Source: Alkalicella caledoniensis (GTDB taxonomy: Bacteria > Bacillota > Proteinivoracia > Proteinivoracales > Proteinivoracaceae). From it: a DNA stretch of 64,000 nt. A program made the translations under genes and the position numbers. Positions 1,860 to 54,374 of this stretch are shown piece after piece; position 1 is the first letter of the stretch; each line of letters starts with the position of its first letter. The stretch lies in assembly GCF_014467015.1 (NCBI RefSeq), contig NZ_CP058559.1, forward strand, positions 1,302,001-1,366,000, read 5' to 3'. Below the pieces are notes generated by a model. That model had not been told where the DNA came from. It did no database searches and saw only the letters and a list, made by a program, of their open reading frames with translations.

Positions 1860-3365
1860 TTAGTCTTTTATTTTGGGGTCTAGAGCATCCCGCAATCCAT
1901 CACCTAATAGGTTAAATGCCAGTACTGTTATAACAATTGCTAATCCTGGAAATAAAGTGGGGTGAAATACATTTCTACTACTGTTTTTCGCTGCATTTAA
2001 CATTGCCCCCCACTCTGGAGCTGTAACGTCTCCACCAAGTCCTAAATAACTTAGGGATGCACCAATTAATATGGCTGTACCTATACGCATGGTCAGGTAA
2101 ACAATTACCACAGATAGTGTGCCAGGGAAGATATGTCTAAATATTATTATATAGTCTTTTACCCCAATGGACTTTGCTGCTTCCACATATGTCATATTTT
2201 TAAGGGAAAGGGTGCTCGCCCTTACAATCCTAATAAATATTGGCACTGTAAAGACAGCAACAGCAAAAATTATATTGTATATTCCAGGACCTAGTATGGC
2301 TATAACAGCGATGGCCAGTAGTATCCCGGGGAAAGCTAGTAACACATCACACATACGGGTAAGAAGTGAATCAACCCAGCCACCGTAGTAGCCTGCAAAC
2401 AGACCTAGGATAGTTCCCAAAACTGTACCTATGGCCACAGACAAGAATCCTATAATAAGTGTCTGTCTTGTGCCTACCAGAATTCTACTAAAAATATCTC
2501 TATTTTGGTGGTCTGTACCAAACCAGTGTAGTGATGATGGTGGCTGATGTTTATATATATCCATCAATTCTATTTCTCTTTTTGCTAACTCAAAAGTCAC
2601 AGGGATGGGTGTGTAATCTTCAACTTCCACAGGAACTTGCAGAACTGTTTCAACATCTCCTATACTTACTTTAATTAGGGCTATCCCCTGGGAAATTGTT
2701 GATATTTCACCTTGGTTGTTAACAGATGCTATTTGAGGATTTAGGGAGGTGAATTCTAAAGCCGTCCCTTGGGTTCCTATTAACTCATCTACATTAGCTG
2801 CTGCTTCTTGTATTGCTAAGGGATCAGTTACTTGCTCTCCATCGGTTAGTAGTGCTTCTACTTCAATAGTAAAACTGTCTCCTACACTAAGGGGTGAGTT
2901 TACTTGGTTTGTTTTTAACGAGCTAACAATGGGTTTATCATGTTCTGCCCTTGTTACCACAACTTTTATAAGGTTAGTTACTCCATTTAGAGAAACTGTT
3001 ACGTAGGTTTCCCCCATGTTTACTGCAGTTGCATTGATGGAGTTATTTATCCCCCTAGCTGATGCAATCCTTCGGTTTTGACTATCTATTACTGGAGTGC
3101 CGTTGGTGCTTGTATTTTTCACACTACCGTCACTGTAAATAATTTGGTAGGGGATATTGGTTGTTGTGAGATGTTCTATATCTAACCCTTTTTCTTGATA
3201 TTGATTTGTTACAGGTAGAGTTGGGTTATATGGTACGAAGTATGGTGAAAGGATTCCCAGCAGTACAATAAAAGTAACTACGAAAAGTGATGCCATGGCC
3301 ATTTTTTGTTTCTTAAATTTCTTAACAAAATCCTTAAAGGGTGAGTATGTGCTTTTATTTTTCAT
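1860..3365 (-). CDS. oppC: Oligopeptide ABC permease OppC with an Ig-like insertion
   Basis: Inner-membrane permease that pairs with OppB. At about 500 residues it is some 200 longer than usual OppC (about 300). TM1 spans roughly residues 26-46 and is followed by PYNP. The canonical sequence resumes near residue 280 with [13 protein letters not shown], then five more TM segments and the permease motif around [10 protein letters not shown]. The extra stretch, about residues 52-272, lies in the first extracytoplasmic loop and looks like two bacterial Ig-like (Big_2 type) repeats, with the hallmark pattern [15 protein letters not shown] and SQGIALIKV. The second of two close ATGs (3365) best fits the AAGGGGG ribosome site. 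The insertion is in frame and its codon use resembles the rest of the gene. Confidence 0.93.
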
Positions 3366-3379
3366 GTTCATCCCCCTTT

Positions 3380-4300
3380 TTAGTCATACCTTATCTGTGG
3401 ATTTAGATAAGCGTATGTTAAATCCACCAATAGGTTTACTACTAAGAATTGTAAAGAAAACAGCATAATGAGTGCTTGAATAACTGGGTAGTCCCTAACT
3501 AATATAGCATCAACTAGATAACTACCTAACCCTGGCCACGAAAATACTTGTTCAACAACTACTGCACCACCAATGAGAAATCCAAATTGTAGGCCTGTCA
3601 TAGTTACCACAGGTATAAGTGCATTTCTAAGGGCGTGCTTCCATATAACTTTCCAGTGTTTTTGCCCTTTTGATCTTGCTGTTCTTATATAGTCCTCTTT
3701 CATTGTTTCAAGGACGCTTGAACGGGTAAACCTTGCGATTACTGCTGCTACTCCTGTGCCTAAAACAATGGAGGGTAGCAATAGATGCTTAAATGTACCT
3801 GTTCCACTGGTTGGCAACCATCCTAGGCCAACAGCAAAGATTTGCATCAATACAAGTCCCATCCAAAAAGATGGCATGCTCAGTAAAGAGATCGATGTTA
3901 CCATACTTAGCCTATCCCATATGGAGTTTCTTTTAACAGCAGATAGTATCCCAATACCTAGGCCTAACACAATGGCCCAAACCATACTCAACATGGCTAA
4001 GTTAAAGGTAAATCCAAATCTCCTAGCAACCTCTTCAGATACACTTGAACGGGTTCTATAGGATGTTCCAAGGTCACCCCTAAAGAGCCCTCCCATATAT
4101 CTACCATATTGAACAATTAGTGGGCCATTGAAACCTTCTCTCTCTTTAATTTCCTCATAGGTTTGCTTATCCATCTCCGAGCCGTACATAATTCTTATTG
4201 GGTCTCCAGGTGTCAAGTGGACGAACATAAACGCTGTTATAGATACTATTAACATTATGGGGATCATTGAGAGTATACGTCTGATTACATAAGTTGTCAT
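3380..4300 (-). CDS. oppB: Oligopeptide ABC permease OppB
   Basis: Permease subunit forming the translocation channel with OppC. Of normal length (306 residues), it opens with the family N-terminus [17 protein letters not shown]. It has HLTPGDP after TM1, the loop [19 protein letters not shown], a cytoplasmic coupling motif [24 protein letters not shown], and the C-terminal signature [19 protein letters not shown] followed by [13 protein letters not shown]. Six TM segments are expected from the hydrophobic pattern. A GAAAGGAG site precedes the ATG. It lies 85 bp after oppA and 14 bp before oppC. Confidence 0.95.
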
Positions 4301-4385: not shown

Positions 4386-5960
4386 TTATTTAAAGAATGC
4401 TTGAGTTAAGATCACTGAACCATCTTTCATCATGAACAGTCCACCAACTTCTTCTCTATGGGCTGTTACTGCTTCCGCTGTATATAAGAACACCCATGGT
4501 GCGTCAGTGTAAAGTTCTTTTTGTACTTCATTATAAAGGGCAAGCCTTTGTGTTTCGTCAGCTGTTGCTAATGCAGTGTCCAATAAACTATCTACTGTAT
4601 GGTTTATATAAAAACCGGAGTTGTTATAGCTAGGTGGAATTCTATCTGAGTAAAAGTTTGGTCTTAGACCTTGATCTGCTTCACCGGTTCCAACAGACCA
4701 TCTTCCGATCCATAGGTCTGTACCTTTATCACCAGCATCTAGCATATCAAACAGTGTACCACTTTCGTATGGTTCTATCTTTACATCTATACCTATCTCT
4801 TTTAATTGAATTGCTATGAAGTCAGCGATATCAATAAATTCTGTTGAGTTTCTCGTCCAAAGGGTGGCCGTGAAGCCCTCTGCATATCCTGCTTCTGCCA
4901 TTAATGCTTTGGCTTTGTTTACATCGTACTCGTATGTGGATTGAGCACTATATCCATATACACCTGGCGCTATGGAAGATGCAGCAATTGAGCCATATCC
5001 ATCAACGATTTGTGCGATAAGTTGATCTTTGTTTATTGCGTAGTTCATGGCATAACGTACATTTTTATCTTGGTATTTCTCTTCTTGGAAATTGATTCCC
5101 ACATAGAATTGTGTGTTAGATGGCCCTGATATTACACCGATGTTTTGGTTTTGTTGTAATTCATCGGCATCGCCTGTTGGTAGTGAAGCCACAAAATGTA
5201 TTTCATTTGCTTTTAGCATATTAACCCTTGTTGCAGCTTCTGGTACTGGTAAGAACTTCAAGTTCTGAACTTGGGCCATTTTGCTAGTGTTCCAGTATTC
5301 TTCGTTTTTCTCTAGTAGTATATGTTGACCATCTCTCCACTCAACAAACTTGAATGGTCCAGTTCCAACTGGATTTCTATCTAAGTTATAGTCTGGGTTT
5401 TCTAGCTTCTTTTGGATTTCTAATTGTGATTTTATACCTGCACCTGTGTGAGAGAAGTAGGATGCCATGGATGCATTTGGTGCTTTGGAGTGAATTATTA
5501 GTTCATAGTCATTTACTATTTCTATCTCGTTGATAAAGCTGAAAAATCCACTACGTGCCATGTTATTTTCTGGATCTTTAACAAATTCAAAGTTTGCTTT
5601 TACTACTTCTGCTGTCAGTTCACTTCCATCATGGAACTTAATACCTTCATGAAGTATGAAGTGTAGCTGTGTCGCATCGTCGTTATATGAGAACTCTTTT
5701 GCTAGGCCTGGTACTATTTGCAGATTCTCATCAAGTTGTAATAAACCTTCAAAAATTGTTCTGTTAATGTTGGACGAAGTTACATCCGTAGCATTAAATG
5801 GATCTAGAGTTGTAGGTTCTGCCTCTTGGGCTATTTTTAATTCTGTCTCTTTAGGTGTTGTGTTTGGTGTAGTATCTTTTTCAGATGTGGAGCATCCCAC
5901 AGCTAATAATGCTGTTAGTAGAATGATTACAAGTGTTTTGAGTCCCTGTATTTTTTTCAT
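4386..5960 (-). CDS. oppA: Peptide-binding lipoprotein OppA, ABC importer
   Basis: Extracytoplasmic solute-binding protein of the SBP_bac_5 family that delivers peptides to OppBC. A lipoprotein signal peptide is clear: a positive start, hydrophobic core LVIILLTALLAV and lipobox VGCS with Cys near residue 23, then a Thr-rich linker. Family landmarks include IAQEAEPTTLDPFNATD near residue 45, the FHDGSELTAEVVKANFEF segment, NPVGTGPFKFVEW, VRYAMNYAINKDQLI and KALMAEAGYAEGF. Length (524) is normal. It is the first gene after the three T-box leaders, so its expression, and that of the downstream opp genes, should respond to uncharged tRNA. Confidence 0.94.
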   Translation of the reverse strand: MKKIQGLKTLVIILLTALLAVGCSTSEKDTTPNTTPKETELKIAQEAEPTTLDPFNATDVTSSNINRTIFEGLLQLDENLQIVPGLAKEFSYNDDATQLHFILHEGIKFHDGSELTAEVVKANFEFVKDPENNMARSGFFSFINEIEIVNDYELIIHSKAPNASMASYFSHTGAGIKSQLEIQKKLENPDYNLDRNPVGTGPFKFVEWRDGQHILLEKNEEYWNTSKMAQVQNLKFLPVPEAATRVNMLKANEIHFVASLPTGDADELQQNQNIGVISGPSNTQFYVGINFQEEKYQDKNVRYAMNYAINKDQLIAQIVDGYGSIAASSIAPGVYGYSAQSTYEYDVNKAKALMAEAGYAEGFTATLWTRNSTEFIDIADFIAIQLKEIGIDVKIEPYESGTLFDMLDAGDKGTDLWIGRWSVGTGEADQGLRPNFYSDRIPPSYNNSGFYINHTVDSLLDTALATADETQRLALYNEVQKELYTDAPWVFLYTAEAVTAHREEVGGLFMMKDGSVILTQAFFK

Positions 5961-6310
5961 TGTTAATCTCTCCTTTGTTTTTTTATCTATTTTTGAATCC
6001 GATATTTTGGGTATAAAAGACCTATTCTTGTCTCACCTCCTTTAATTTTGTAAGTTATTTTTATACATCCTACCAAAAAACCTTTGCCACTAACTCCACT
6101 AAAAAACTCTCTCACTAACTTACACTACCTAGATCTAGCTTTGTGTATAATTAGTGTTAATCCATAACCTTCATGGTAGTGTCATTAGTGACTGATTTTT
6201 ACTAATCAGTTAGATCATATAGATCTGTGGCTAAGCTTTTAAGTTTTCTTAACTGCCTACCCCTGAGTCCTGACTTCTGATCCTTACCTGCAAAGTTCAT
6301 TTAAAGATAC
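5961..6310 (-). other. Leader segment between the last T-box and oppA
   Basis: A 350-bp untranslated segment between the terminator of the oppA-proximal T-box and oppA. It holds the oppA ribosome site AAGGAG (about 5969-5974) and, from about 6070 to 6260, a near copy of the segment at 6575-6760, including one copy of the GATCTGTGGCTAAG repeat. I see no reading frame worth calling. Confidence 0.6.
6070..6260. repeat. Direct repeat copy 1 of the T-box spacer
   Basis: This stretch matches 6575-6760 with few changes, including CATAACCTTCATGGTAGTG and the GATCTGTGGCTAAG motif. Together with the adjacent T-box it forms a unit of about 460-470 bp that has been duplicated head to tail. Confidence 0.8.
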
Positions 6311-6560
6311 AAAAAAACTCGCCCCTTGTATATAAGAGACGAGTTTTATCCCGCGTTACCACTCTTGTTGATAGAACAACTTCTTCTATCCACCTCTGAC
6401 CTCTAACGGTGGCGAGCCGATCTTCCCTACACAGTTGCGCATTGCAACTTTCAAAAAAACTCCTACCAGGTGCGCTTCAATTAGGTTCCACTGCTAGACT
6501 TACACCAACCACTAGCTCGCTGAAAATTTCCCCTATTTACTCTCCTAGATTATCGGATTT
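6311..6560 (-). ncRNA. T-box leader C (oppA-proximal)
   Basis: Minus-strand T-box riboswitch. The T-box core reads AGAGTGGTAACGCGGG (6350-6365), close to the family consensus. Upstream lie the CACCGTTAGAGG segment, a Stem I apical region AGCGAGCTAGTGGTTGGTG and the AGTA specifier-loop element at the 5' end. Downstream is an intrinsic terminator with CTCGTCTC/GGGGCGAG arms and a T-run (6311-6345). The antiterminator bulge is TGGT, predicting a tRNA with discriminator base A. I could not fix the specifier codon: CTG (Leu) just before TGTAGG and GTT (Val) after TTTGAAA are both possible. Confidence 0.9.
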
Positions 6561-6574
6561 AATTTATAATTCCT

Positions 6575-6760
6575 TTGCCACTAACTTCACTAAAGTTCTC
6601 TTTCACTAACTTACACTACTTACATATAGCTTTGTGGTTATTTTAGTGTTAATTCATAACCTTCATGGTAGTGCCATTAGTGACTGATTTTTACTAATCA
6701 GTTAGATCATGTAGATCTGTGGCTAAGCTTTTAAGTTTTTTGAACTGCCTGACTCCTGAT
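6575..6760. repeat. Direct repeat copy 2 of the T-box spacer
   Basis: Second copy of the spacer at 6070-6260. It lies between T-box leaders B and C and shows the same motif order, including ACTGATTTTTACTAATCAGT, which is itself an inverted repeat, and GATCATGTAGATCTGTGG. Confidence 0.8.
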
Positions 6761-6770
6761 TTTATGGTAT

Positions 6771-7020
6771 AAAAAAATTCGCCCCTTGTATATAAGAGAC
6801 GAGTTTTATCCCGCGTTACCACTCTTGTTGATAGAACAACTTCTTCTATCCACCTCTGACCTCTAACGGTGGCCAGCCGATCTTCTCTACACAGTTACGC
6901 TTTGCAACTTTCAAAAAGACTCCTACCAGGTGCGCTTCAATTAGGTTCCATTGCTAGACTTACACCAACCACTAGCTCGCTGAAAATCTCCCCTATTTAC
7001 TCTCCTAGATTATTGGATTT
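6771..7020 (-). ncRNA. T-box leader B (middle)
   Basis: Second of three tandem minus-strand T-box leaders. The core AGAGTGGTAACGCGGG at 6810-6825 is identical to the other two copies. Its terminator is at 6771-6803. Stem I, the AGTA element and the CCACCGTTAGAGG region are all retained. The hairpin just before TGTAGAG differs from copy C by a G-C to G-U change (AGTTGC/GTAACT), which keeps the pairing. It is about 460 bp from copy C and 330 bp from copy A. Confidence 0.9.
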
Positions 7021-7100
7021 AATTTATAAAACCTTTGCCACTAAATTCACTAAAGGACTCTCTCACTAACGAACTGCCTGACTCCTGATTTTGTGGTATA

Positions 7101-7345
7101 AAAAAACTCGCCTCTTTTATATAAGAGACGAGATCTATATTCCCGCGTTACCACTCTTGTTGATAGAACAACTTCTTCTATCCACCTCTAACCTTTAACG
7201 GTGGCGAACCGATCTTCTCTACACAGTTGCATTGCAACCTTCAAAAAAACTCCTACTGGGTGCGCTTCAATTAGGTTCCTTTGCTAGACTTACACCAACC
7301 ACTAGCTCGCTGAAAAATTTCCCCTATTTACTGTCCCGATCAACG
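7101..7345 (-). ncRNA. T-box leader A (promoter-proximal)
   Basis: First T-box encountered by polymerase. The core AGAGTGGTAACGCGGG is at 7142-7157 and the terminator, with CTCGTCTCTT/AAGAGGCGAG arms and a T-run, is at 7101-7132. The 5' end is the most divergent of the three (GATCGGGACAGTAAATAGG), while the apical loop and antiterminator are conserved. Transcription should start near 7362 from the promoter at 7369-7397, so a single transcript must pass three T-box terminators before reaching oppA. Confidence 0.9.
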
Positions 7346-7368
7346 GATTTGTTTTTTAAGTTATTGTC

Positions 7369-7397
7369 ATTATAATGATTTACCGGACTAAAGTCAA
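7369..7397 (-). promoter_or_regulatory. Strong sigma-A promoter of the T-box/opp transcript
   Basis: Minus-strand TTGACT (7392-7397) and TATAAT (7369-7374) are separated by exactly 17 bp, almost a consensus promoter. It lies just upstream of T-box A. An inverted repeat (ACTAAAGTC at 7387-7395 and GACTTTAGT at 7423-7431) overlaps the -35 box and could be the dppA terminator or an operator. Confidence 0.85.
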
Positions 7398-7448
7398 CAA
7401 CTTTTTTAGAACTTAATATTCTGACTTTAGTCACACCCTATTCTTCAA

Positions 7449-8345
7449 CTATTCCATTGGGTCGTATGTGCCAGCTAACCGTTCTTTTATTAACTTCTCT
7501 TTGTCTTCTTCAGATATTGAGATATTCTCTCTTACATAGTGAAATAGTTCAAACCCCATTTCAATGGACGGTGCTTCCCAAGTAGCTACTTTTTCCGTGA
7601 AACTTCCTTTCCATGGGAAGCTTTCTGGATCTTTAAAGTAGAAGTATTTGCATAAGTCCAATTTGAAATGATATGGGGGAGTTATGTTTGCAGGTTCGGC
7701 TTTATGTGCATTTTCTAGTGCTTCAAGAACGCCCTTTTTTATAATAGGGTAAGTCTCCTCAGCATTGGGTTCCCAATTTTGGCCTTTGTCTTTAACACTG
7801 ATGTGTTTAACTTTTGGTGAGAGCTCTAAGGCTTCTCTCTCAGATGCTGCACATCCTATGTTTGCTATATATGGTACCCTTTGAAAATTTAGTATCGCCA
7901 TACCTATCTCTGCTACATGTAAATCATTTACCAACAGAGCTTTTATAGGTGGAGATTGTATTGTGTGTGCAAAGTAAGCTTCTTTTTCCCCATTTCTTGC
8001 GTGTTGGCCTACTGTAATTAGTCCAAAGGGCTCTACTTCGGCTTGACCCCTAATTCTTCTCCAGTCAAAACATCTATCAGGCACATCAAAGTATCTTACA
8101 TTAGATGGCAGTTTTTCCTTTATAACATTAAACTCTGGATTCCCTGCAAAGTGTCCATCATAGTATAAAATTTCGTCTATACCAAATTCATTGGCAGCAT
8201 CACATACTGCCAGTATATCAGAGGTCATCTTTTCTCTTCCCTGTTCTCTCCATGCATCTTCACCATTTAATAACTCTTTTTGATGCTGGTCAAAAATACC
8301 TGAAGCCCCTTCCATGTCAGAAATAAGAATTAATTGTTTTCTCAT
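7449..8345 (-). CDS. M55-family D-aminopeptidase (DppA-like)
   Basis: Probable zinc peptidase of family M55, whose known member DppA cleaves D-Ala dipeptides. The N-terminal metal motif SDMEGASG is near residues 8-15, YDGHFAGN supplies another ligand near residue 60, and GQHARNGEKEAYFAHT matches the GxHA...HT region. About 298 residues is slightly longer than DppA (about 274). I chose the ATG at 8345, which has AAGGGGG six bases upstream, over an upstream in-frame ATG at 8378 that lies inside the preceding gene. It is the last gene of the ABC exporter run. A role in recycling wall D-amino-acid peptides is an inference. Confidence 0.88.
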   Translation of the reverse strand: MRKQLILISDMEGASGIFDQHQKELLNGEDAWREQGREKMTSDILAVCDAANEFGIDEILYYDGHFAGNPEFNVIKEKLPSNVRYFDVPDRCFDWRRIRGQAEVEPFGLITVGQHARNGEKEAYFAHTIQSPPIKALLVNDLHVAEIGMAILNFQRVPYIANIGCAASEREALELSPKVKHISVKDKGQNWEPNAEETYPIIKKGVLEALENAHKAEPANITPPYHFKLDLCKYFYFKDPESFPWKGSFTEKVATWEAPSIEMGFELFHYVRENISISEEDKEKLIKERLAGTYDPME

Positions 8346-8367
8346 TGTTTTCCCCCTTAATAAAATA

Positions 8368-9981
8368 TTAGGATACACTTCCCCCTGCTACGGAAATGAC
8401 TCTGTCATAATACTTCTTAGTTTCATCAAAAATAATATGACTTACGTTAACTACTGTAATGCCTTCTAGTTTTAACAATGTATTTTCTATTTCCTTGGCA
8501 ACCTTAGAATCAAGACTTGCAAAGGCCTCATCTAAAAATATAATGTCTGTATTTGCCAACAGACCTCTAGCTATTGCTATTCTGCTTTTTTCTCCCCCTG
8601 AGATATTCCTTCCATTGTCATAGAGCATAGTATTTAGGTTGTTAGGAAGGTTCTGTACGAATTCAGTAAGCCCTGACCTTACAATTGCTAAGTCTATCTC
8701 TTCATCACTATAATCTTTGTAGAGGGTTAAATTGTTTTTAAGAGTATCTTCAAATAAAAATACCTGCTGCTCTACATTGGCTATTTTGTTAAAATAACTA
8801 CTCTTACTTATATCACTGATATCTATGTTATCTATTTTAATTGACCCTTTGCTTGGTATAAAGTACTTCCTTAGTAGTTTTAGTAGGGTTGATTTCCCTC
8901 CACCACTAGGTCCAATTATCAGGTATTTACTACCTTTGTTGATGGTTAGGTTTATATTCTTTAATATCAAATCCTCTGTATAACCAAATGAAACATCCTT
9001 AAGTTCTATGGAATTATTAAATGATTCTAATTCCACTGTTTCCACTTTTAGGTCTTTGCTCTCCAATATTTCGTCCATGTTAACGAACAAAGACTTAACT
9101 GAAAAAATCTTTGGAAGCCACTCAGAAACCTGCATCAAGGGAAATATTACTTTTTCCATATTATTTATGATAAGTATAACTCCCCCTGTGGTAATTCTTC
9201 CTTGGATGGCCATGTAGATCACTATGCCAGCTATACCATAGAAGGAAAGGTTTGTTGTAAGTCTTTGAATTGAAAGGAAGTAAGTATAGATCCTATCTAT
9301 TACATATCCCTTATACTGTATATCTTTGCTTTTGATAAAAAAGTCTTTGCTAACTTTTGCACTCAAGTTATTGGCCTTAATTATGGAAAATGCTCCAAGG
9401 ACCTCTCTTATATACGACGTGTAGCCTTCAAAAAGCTTTGACCTTTGAACTTGGTGCCTTTGTAGTGGTTTACTTAAAGCCACAGCTAGCAATGTACTAA
9501 ATGCACTGATTCCAATACCCACAAAAAGTGCAATGGGGCTAACAGAGTAAATAACAATAATACCCACCACAAAAGTTATAATGTTCATGGTTATTTGAAA
9601 GATTGCTTCCACATAATTATTTTCGATAATATTCATGTCATTGGTTATAGCAGAAATGTATAACCCATTATTGTCCTTTTGAAACTCACTGATATTTTTT
9701 TTAAATACCCTATCCATAAAACTAATTTTAACTGACGTAAGAGATTTATATTTGTACAGACCCTTAGCGAATGACAATACAATATTAATGGGTAGTAATA
9801 GTATTGCAAGGAGAATTAGTGTCCTTGCTTGTGTGTAAAATAGTACCCTATCTCCAGCAAGAGTTGTGTCTACAACTCTCATCATGTAAATTGATATATA
9901 ACCTTCTACTATAGCAGCTGCTAACCCTATAAATATGGCTAAACATAGAAAAGGCCATTTGCTTAATATTGATTTTTTCAT
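8368..9981 (-). CDS. ABC exporter half-transporter (TMD-NBD), second subunit
   Basis: Fused membrane and ATPase half-transporter (537 residues). Six TM helices fall in the first 290 residues. The ATPase domain has Walker A GPSGGGKST near residue 350, Q-loop NVEQQVFLFEDT, signature ISGGEKSRIAIARG, Walker B with catalytic Glu in IFLDEAFASLD, and an H-loop NVSH. It overlaps the stop of the previous half-transporter by 4 bp (ATGA), so the two almost certainly form a heterodimer. The substrate is unknown. Neighbouring DUF4097/SHOCT genes point to envelope stress or toxic-compound export, which is an inference. Confidence 0.9.
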   Translation of the reverse strand: MKKSILSKWPFLCLAIFIGLAAAIVEGYISIYMMRVVDTTLAGDRVLFYTQARTLILLAILLLPINIVLSFAKGLYKYKSLTSVKISFMDRVFKKNISEFQKDNNGLYISAITNDMNIIENNYVEAIFQITMNIITFVVGIIVIYSVSPIALFVGIGISAFSTLLAVALSKPLQRHQVQRSKLFEGYTSYIREVLGAFSIIKANNLSAKVSKDFFIKSKDIQYKGYVIDRIYTYFLSIQRLTTNLSFYGIAGIVIYMAIQGRITTGGVILIINNMEKVIFPLMQVSEWLPKIFSVKSLFVNMDEILESKDLKVETVELESFNNSIELKDVSFGYTEDLILKNINLTINKGSKYLIIGPSGGGKSTLLKLLRKYFIPSKGSIKIDNIDISDISKSSYFNKIANVEQQVFLFEDTLKNNLTLYKDYSDEEIDLAIVRSGLTEFVQNLPNNLNTMLYDNGRNISGGEKSRIAIARGLLANTDIIFLDEAFASLDSKVAKEIENTLLKLEGITVVNVSHIIFDETKKYYDRVISVAGGSVS

Positions 9982-53892: not shown

Positions 53893-54374
53893 AACTGGTC
53901 ACTCATTTCTAGTACTTGTTGATGGGTTGCTTTCCTTTTTGCTTCTAGGGCTAGGATAATTTCTTCGAATTGGGTGCTAAGGATTTGTGCTGCAAGGAGA
54001 CCTGCGTTTGTAGCACCTGCTTTACCTATGGCAACTGTGGCAACTGGTACACCACCGGGCATTTGTACTATGGATAGGAGGGAGTCTAGGCCGTTTAGGG
54101 CTTTAGACTGAACTGGCACGCCTATTACTGGCAGGGTTGTCTTGGATGCCACCATACCAGGTAGGTGGGCTGCGCCTCCGGCACCAGCGATGATTATTTT
54201 GATTCCTCGCCTGCGGGCTGTTTCTGCGTATTGGAACATAAGATCAGGTGTGCGGTGAGCTGATACTACTTTTTTTTCATAGGGAATGTGTAGCTCCTCA
54301 AGGATGTCACATGCATGCTGCATTGTATCCCAGTCAGAAATACTTCCCATGATAACTCCTACTTGTGGATTCAT
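53880..54374 (-). CDS. purE: PurE, N5-CAIR mutase
   Basis: 164 residues, class I PurE. Converts N5-CAIR to CAIR. Signature [21 protein letters not shown] at the start, [20 protein letters not shown] near 38, [19 protein letters not shown] near 62, and [23 protein letters not shown] near 100. First gene of purEK. I see no purine riboswitch or PurR box upstream. Confidence 0.97.

Follow-up and report, generated by a model that had tools for sequence, protein, structure and literature searches.

Three tandem T-box leaders of probable arginine specificity upstream of an Opp/Dpp-type importer operon in Alkalicella caledoniensis

Within the stretch of A. caledoniensis DNA analysed here (64,000 nucleotides, hereafter the window), a series of T-box leaders stands in front of a single importer operon, which raises the question of which amino acid these leaders sense and how several switches in a row could control one set of genes. 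The answer proposed here with good confidence is a triple-tandem, arginine-specific, transcription-terminating T-box leader which would gate a peptide importer serially.

Anatomy of the T-box array and its importer operon

A cmscan search with Rfam 15 returned three full-length RF00230 matches, all on the minus strand and each spanning model positions 1-219: copy 1 at 7352-7121 (129.1 bits, E 2.4e-28), copy 2 at 7022-6792 (122.6 bits, E 1.1e-26), and copy 3 at 6562-6332 (118.5 bits, E 1.3e-25), against a gathering cut-off of 93 bits. The covariance model, named in the preliminary description as the check on its claim of three complete serial leaders, scores every copy as a T-box and not just one. 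By terminator scan and folding, each copy is followed by an intrinsic terminator of its own on the same strand, at 7107-7132 for copy 1, 6779-6802 for copy 2, and 6314-6347 for copy 3; the scan found six terminator-like sites, with 0.7 expected in shuffled sequences. In all three copies a single stretch of RNA forms both the 3' arm of the antiterminator and the 5' arm of the terminator, the folded antiterminators reaching -6.9 to -7.9 kcal/mol and the segment that includes the terminator, with this one arm in common, -15.0 to -22.1 kcal/mol. The stem I AGUA motif and the specifier loop GAAG-CGC-A are present throughout, and the T-box bulge, as had been described from the start, is the same in each (UGGU at 7153-7150, 6821-6818, and 6361-6358). 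Specifier, AGUA motif, apical UUGGUG, bulge, and antiterminator are unchanged across the copies. Since no gene lies on the minus strand from 7397 to 5960, these complete T-boxes with their own expression platforms share a single intergenic leader, and the three-copy array is real, chance being dismissed as its source.

Transcription of the array is expected from a sigma-70-type promoter, TTGACT-17-TATAAT (7369-7397, minus strand), which matches the consensus at 11 of 12 positions and lies upstream of copy 1, in agreement with the single near-consensus promoter first reported. Downstream of the array, the oligopeptide-type importer of the preliminary description took shape as a five-gene Opp/Dpp-type operon, also on the minus strand, with a peptide-type solute-binding lipoprotein of the SBP_bac_5 family (4386-5960), a DppB/OppB/GsiC-type permease (3380-4300), a DppC/GsiD-type permease of 503 aa (1860-3371), an OppD-type ATPase (833-1831), and an OppF-type ATPase (1-832), the last gene of the operon, which runs past the window start and of which 321 aa are seen in L105 6868-7833. 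The presence in a single operon of two permeases and two ATPases of the OppD/F type beside the solute-binding protein places the importer in the Opp/Dpp type. The solute-binding protein passed no NCBIfam equivalog cut-off, and families related to it carry glutathione, nickel, or peptides; the array probably gates a peptide-import operon. The DppC-type permease bears an Ig-like (Big) insert after its first transmembrane segment, between the N-terminal and transport domains.

Sutcliffiella horikoshii and Bacillus sp. CHD6a have colinear importer operons whose proteins are 54-72% identical to those of A. caledoniensis, and the Ig-like insert is present in both. No T-box was found near either colinear operon (in CHD6a, 0.9 kb upstream was covered), nor beside importer homologues of Bacillaceae or of four members of the family, and with such homologues lacking a T-box nearby, the T-box is not supported as an ancestral part of the operon.

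Duplication history and the serial arrangement

The head-to-tail duplication proposed for the array is borne out and appears to have been stepwise. Identity is 96.7% between copies 2 and 3 and 90.5-91.7% between copy 1 and either of these, copy 1 being the nearest of the three to the single copy of relatives; several sites still show the relatives' base in copy 1 and a derived base, common to both, in copies 2 and 3. Among these, a G-C pair of stem I (columns 17 and 96 of alignment A1) has become A-U in copies 2 and 3 through changes on both sides. Stem pair counts were taken from the Rfam structure because RNAalifold, run on five sequences, favours the terminator. The duplicated unit comprises a T-box and its spacer, and the simplest history suggested by the alignment would be a first duplication that separated copy 1 from the common precursor of copies 2 and 3, which was then itself duplicated.

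As for the spacers, which had also been called duplicated, this holds for spacer B (6563-6778) and spacer C (6060-6313, from copy 3 to the first gene), both of full length, 90% identical, and carrying the same dispersed genomic repeat, whereas spacer A (7023-7106; all on the minus strand) is a short form of these that lacks some 130 nt and itself matches the repeat in part. The repeat has 55 partial matches in the genome. With no RF00230 match in cmscan and a match to the dispersed repeat instead, the spacers are rejected as degenerate T-boxes; the repeat within them is a plausible, though unproven, substrate for recombination. The repeat module AAAGCTTAGCCACAGATCTATATGATCTAA occurs at dozens of genomic sites, for instance in L060 and close to L003 and L020, including sites that separate the TrpRS and ProRS T-boxes from the genes downstream of them. 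Elsewhere in the window, a purine riboswitch (55729-55628, minus strand, 83.8 bits) is followed by about 800 nt of tandem short dispersed repeats (CTTAGCCACAGATCTACATGATCTA...), and a purE-like start at 54372 on the same strand follows this riboswitch and repeat stretch (55729-54372).

Among 101 genomes, the nearest T-boxes are single copies, 75-76% identical to the array, in two genomes of the same family, G001 (C19:1075-1300) and G003 (C19:3501-3726), each upstream of a gene for an NhaC-type antiporter. They share with the array the specifier loop GAAGCGCACC and the UGGNAAC form of the bulge but differ from it in copy number, in having UGGC instead of UGGU, and in the NhaC-type target. The A. 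caledoniensis orthologue of this antiporter gene (G000:C1:2523416-2524732, 74%) has no T-box among the 23 of the genome. Tandem T-boxes were found in none of the four family members searched, so that the array is not conserved; double T-boxes are present in G008 and G017. Because importer homologues and the NhaC-type orthologue lack a T-box and the four family members searched lack tandems, both the recruitment to the importer operon and the tripling look lineage-specific as far as sampled.

Such a pattern could also arise if duplication near dispersed repeats had produced the three copies passively, one of them doing nearly all of the regulating and the others adding nothing under selection, an explanation which is possible but which we regard as the less probable course of events. 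It draws on the scarcity of differences between copies 2 and 3 (8 of 244 positions), on spacers that carry a genome-wide repeat, and on the four other family members without tandems, and the copies may be young enough to seem intact without selection on all three. Copy 1, however, is 8-10% diverged and yet has every functional motif intact, the altered stem I pair was altered on both sides, and serial terminators must act on any transcript that reaches them, so that extra copies cannot be silent.

Serial action would, on the other hand, be incomplete if internal or read-through promoters bypassed at least one gate, making control a mixture rather than an AND function. A promoter scan of 5900-7600 found one further promoter-like site, at 6242-6214, beyond copy 3, from which transcripts would evade all three gates; it matches the consensus at 9 of 12 positions, within chance. 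Promoter-like sites are rarer here (2) than shuffled sequence would lead one to expect (4.5), and the site at 7397-7369 is the one strong site. Upstream, the gene for an M55 D-aminopeptidase (DppA-like; 7449-8378, minus strand) ends 52 nt before the -35 box, and because the terminator scan found no terminator between this gene and the array promoter, its transcripts may enter the array. Read-through of this kind would nevertheless still have to cross all three terminators, and a mixed control is considered quite improbable.

Specifier codon and cognate tRNA

The specifier register was calibrated within the genome, on those T-boxes for which the amino acid is known from the target gene; they are 17 of the 20 outside the array and precede 16 aminoacyl-tRNA ligase genes and asnA, as named by NCBIfam. 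In every one of the 17, a purine at the specifier loop's end directly follows the cognate codon, which occupies the same Rfam columns in all but the AspRS case, offset by one; readings include CUC-A for LeuRS, UGG-A for TrpRS, UUC-A for PheRS, GCU-A for AlaRS, AAC-A for both AsnRS and AsnA, and AUG-G for MetRS. In this register the loop of all three copies, GAAG-CGC-A-CC, reads CGC (7264-7262, 6934-6932, and 6474-6472), so that each copy is read as specifying arginine. By our reading, CGC also lies in the '+0' frame that the T-box database TBDB (PMC7778990) prefers. The preliminary description was right in giving the copies a common specifier; its candidates, CTG (Leu) and GTT (Val), fall outside the calibrated position and are rejected.

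Among the tRNAs read from stretches of the A. caledoniensis genome, tRNA-Arg(ACG) combines a matching anticodon, inosine being assumed at position 34 for the reading of CGC, with a pairable discriminator, G73, and a 3' end of GCCA. Opposite the UGGU bulge, G73 forms a G-U wobble. The discriminator A first deduced from this bulge is accordingly not that of the cognate tRNA, and the Trp, Asn, Asp, and Gln T-boxes of the genome likewise pair UGGU with G73 tRNAs, such wobbles being ordinary in A. caledoniensis. The wobble in the array is weaker than the Watson-Crick pairing of UGGC with G73 in G001 and G003, whose tRNA-Arg(ACG) is 100% identical to that of A. caledoniensis. That the leaders might instead sense tRNA-Ala, whose A73 is Watson-Crick with UGGU, through a GCG that lies one base upstream of CGC and also inside the specifier loop, is very unlikely and was rejected on register and on the bulge of relatives: all 17 calibrators set the codon one base further on, before a purine, the AlaRS T-box uses GCU-A whereas GCG here would precede C, the genome stretches from which tRNAs were read yielded no tRNA-Ala(CGC), and relatives with the same loop carry UGGC, which mismatches the A73 read in A. 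caledoniensis tRNA-Ala.

Two further T-boxes of this genome have targets outside the aminoacyl-tRNA ligases. An unusual target, the gene for a lone GNAT acetyltransferase, follows one with the specifier GUA (Val), at L007 1501-1768 (G000:C1:1125274-1125541). A second CGC (Arg) T-box, at L008 1501-1716 (G000:C1:3076255-3076470), precedes a Gate-domain membrane protein (PF07670), for which an arginine-related transport role is predicted on account of this T-box.

Predicted gating and arginine supply

In the arginine-specific serial leader favoured here, RNA polymerase starting from the 7397-7369 promoter would meet three independent switches. At each of them, uncharged tRNA-Arg(ACG) would pair with the specifier CGC and, through its free GCCA end, with the UGGU bulge, stabilising the antiterminator and letting the polymerase pass, while with charged tRNA-Arg the terminator would stay formed. 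Because every gate requires its own uncharged tRNA, read-through probabilities would multiply, and the leak under arginine-replete conditions should be very low, the response to starvation steeper, and the maximum output somewhat lower; with illustrative values of a 5% leak and a 70% maximum per gate, three gates would give a leak of about 0.01% and a maximum of about 34%. The steep, AND-like control first proposed for this locus is plausible and has a measured precedent in a triple c-di-GMP riboswitch (PMC4759541). It seems unlikely, though conceivable, that selection has further amplified, in this lineage only, an arginine T-box that was taken over from an amino-acid-transporter context by a peptide importer and tripled there, so that three gates offset the weak UGGU:G73 pairing and yield a near-digital arginine-starvation switch.

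Arrays of three are known from other leaders, contrary to the earlier implication that T-boxes occur at most in pairs. Triple T-boxes make up 13% of tandem thrS cases, in Priestia filamentosa, Bacillus mycoides, and others, and were also published in 2025 for the trp operon of Streptococcus macedonicus and for artQ-glnQ-artP operons (PMC12452182). These have three contiguous T-boxes per leader, as here, and the art operons likewise encode ABC importers; the targets differ, art belonging to an amino-acid importer family rather than to the Opp/Dpp type. Tandem T-boxes in the trp operons of Bacillales and some clostridia (PMC4342826 and its references) are similarly serial within one leader but have two copies, trp specificity, and a role in biosynthesis instead of uptake. 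An arginine T-box before a peptide importer was not found in the open-access literature searched, outside which lie the two main T-box surveys; the array is a clear further example of triple T-boxes with an uncommon target, and no priority is claimed.

The mode of action of tandem T-boxes has been stated as unknown and listed as an open question (PMC7583486). A measured parallel is the triple-tandem c-di-GMP-I riboswitch of Bacillus thuringiensis, which acts more stringently and more digitally than a single or double copy, its background falling from 74% to 25% to 8% and its fold change rising from 1.2 to 1.8 to 3.4 for one, two, and three copies (PMC4759541). Like the array, it consists of three complete switches of the same specificity with their own terminators, although its ligand is c-di-GMP and not a tRNA. 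With three near-identical natural copies sharing one specifier and a single-copy homologue in a related genus, the array offers a ready set for testing multiplied gating.

Argininosuccinate synthase (argG, PF00764) has no match in the A. caledoniensis genome and only sub-threshold fragments in the four family members, while controls were positive in 14 of 14 genomes; judged by PF00764 alone, A. caledoniensis is apparently not capable of synthesising arginine itself. A peptide importer that responds to arginine would suit such an organism, and the output of the leader would be a five-gene ABC importer that takes up peptides as a supply of arginine. A cell that does not complete the argininosuccinate route and imports peptides when its tRNA-Arg is uncharged would present a coherent picture, and what the transporter sequences alone do not predict, the leader does, namely arginine supply as the role of the importer.
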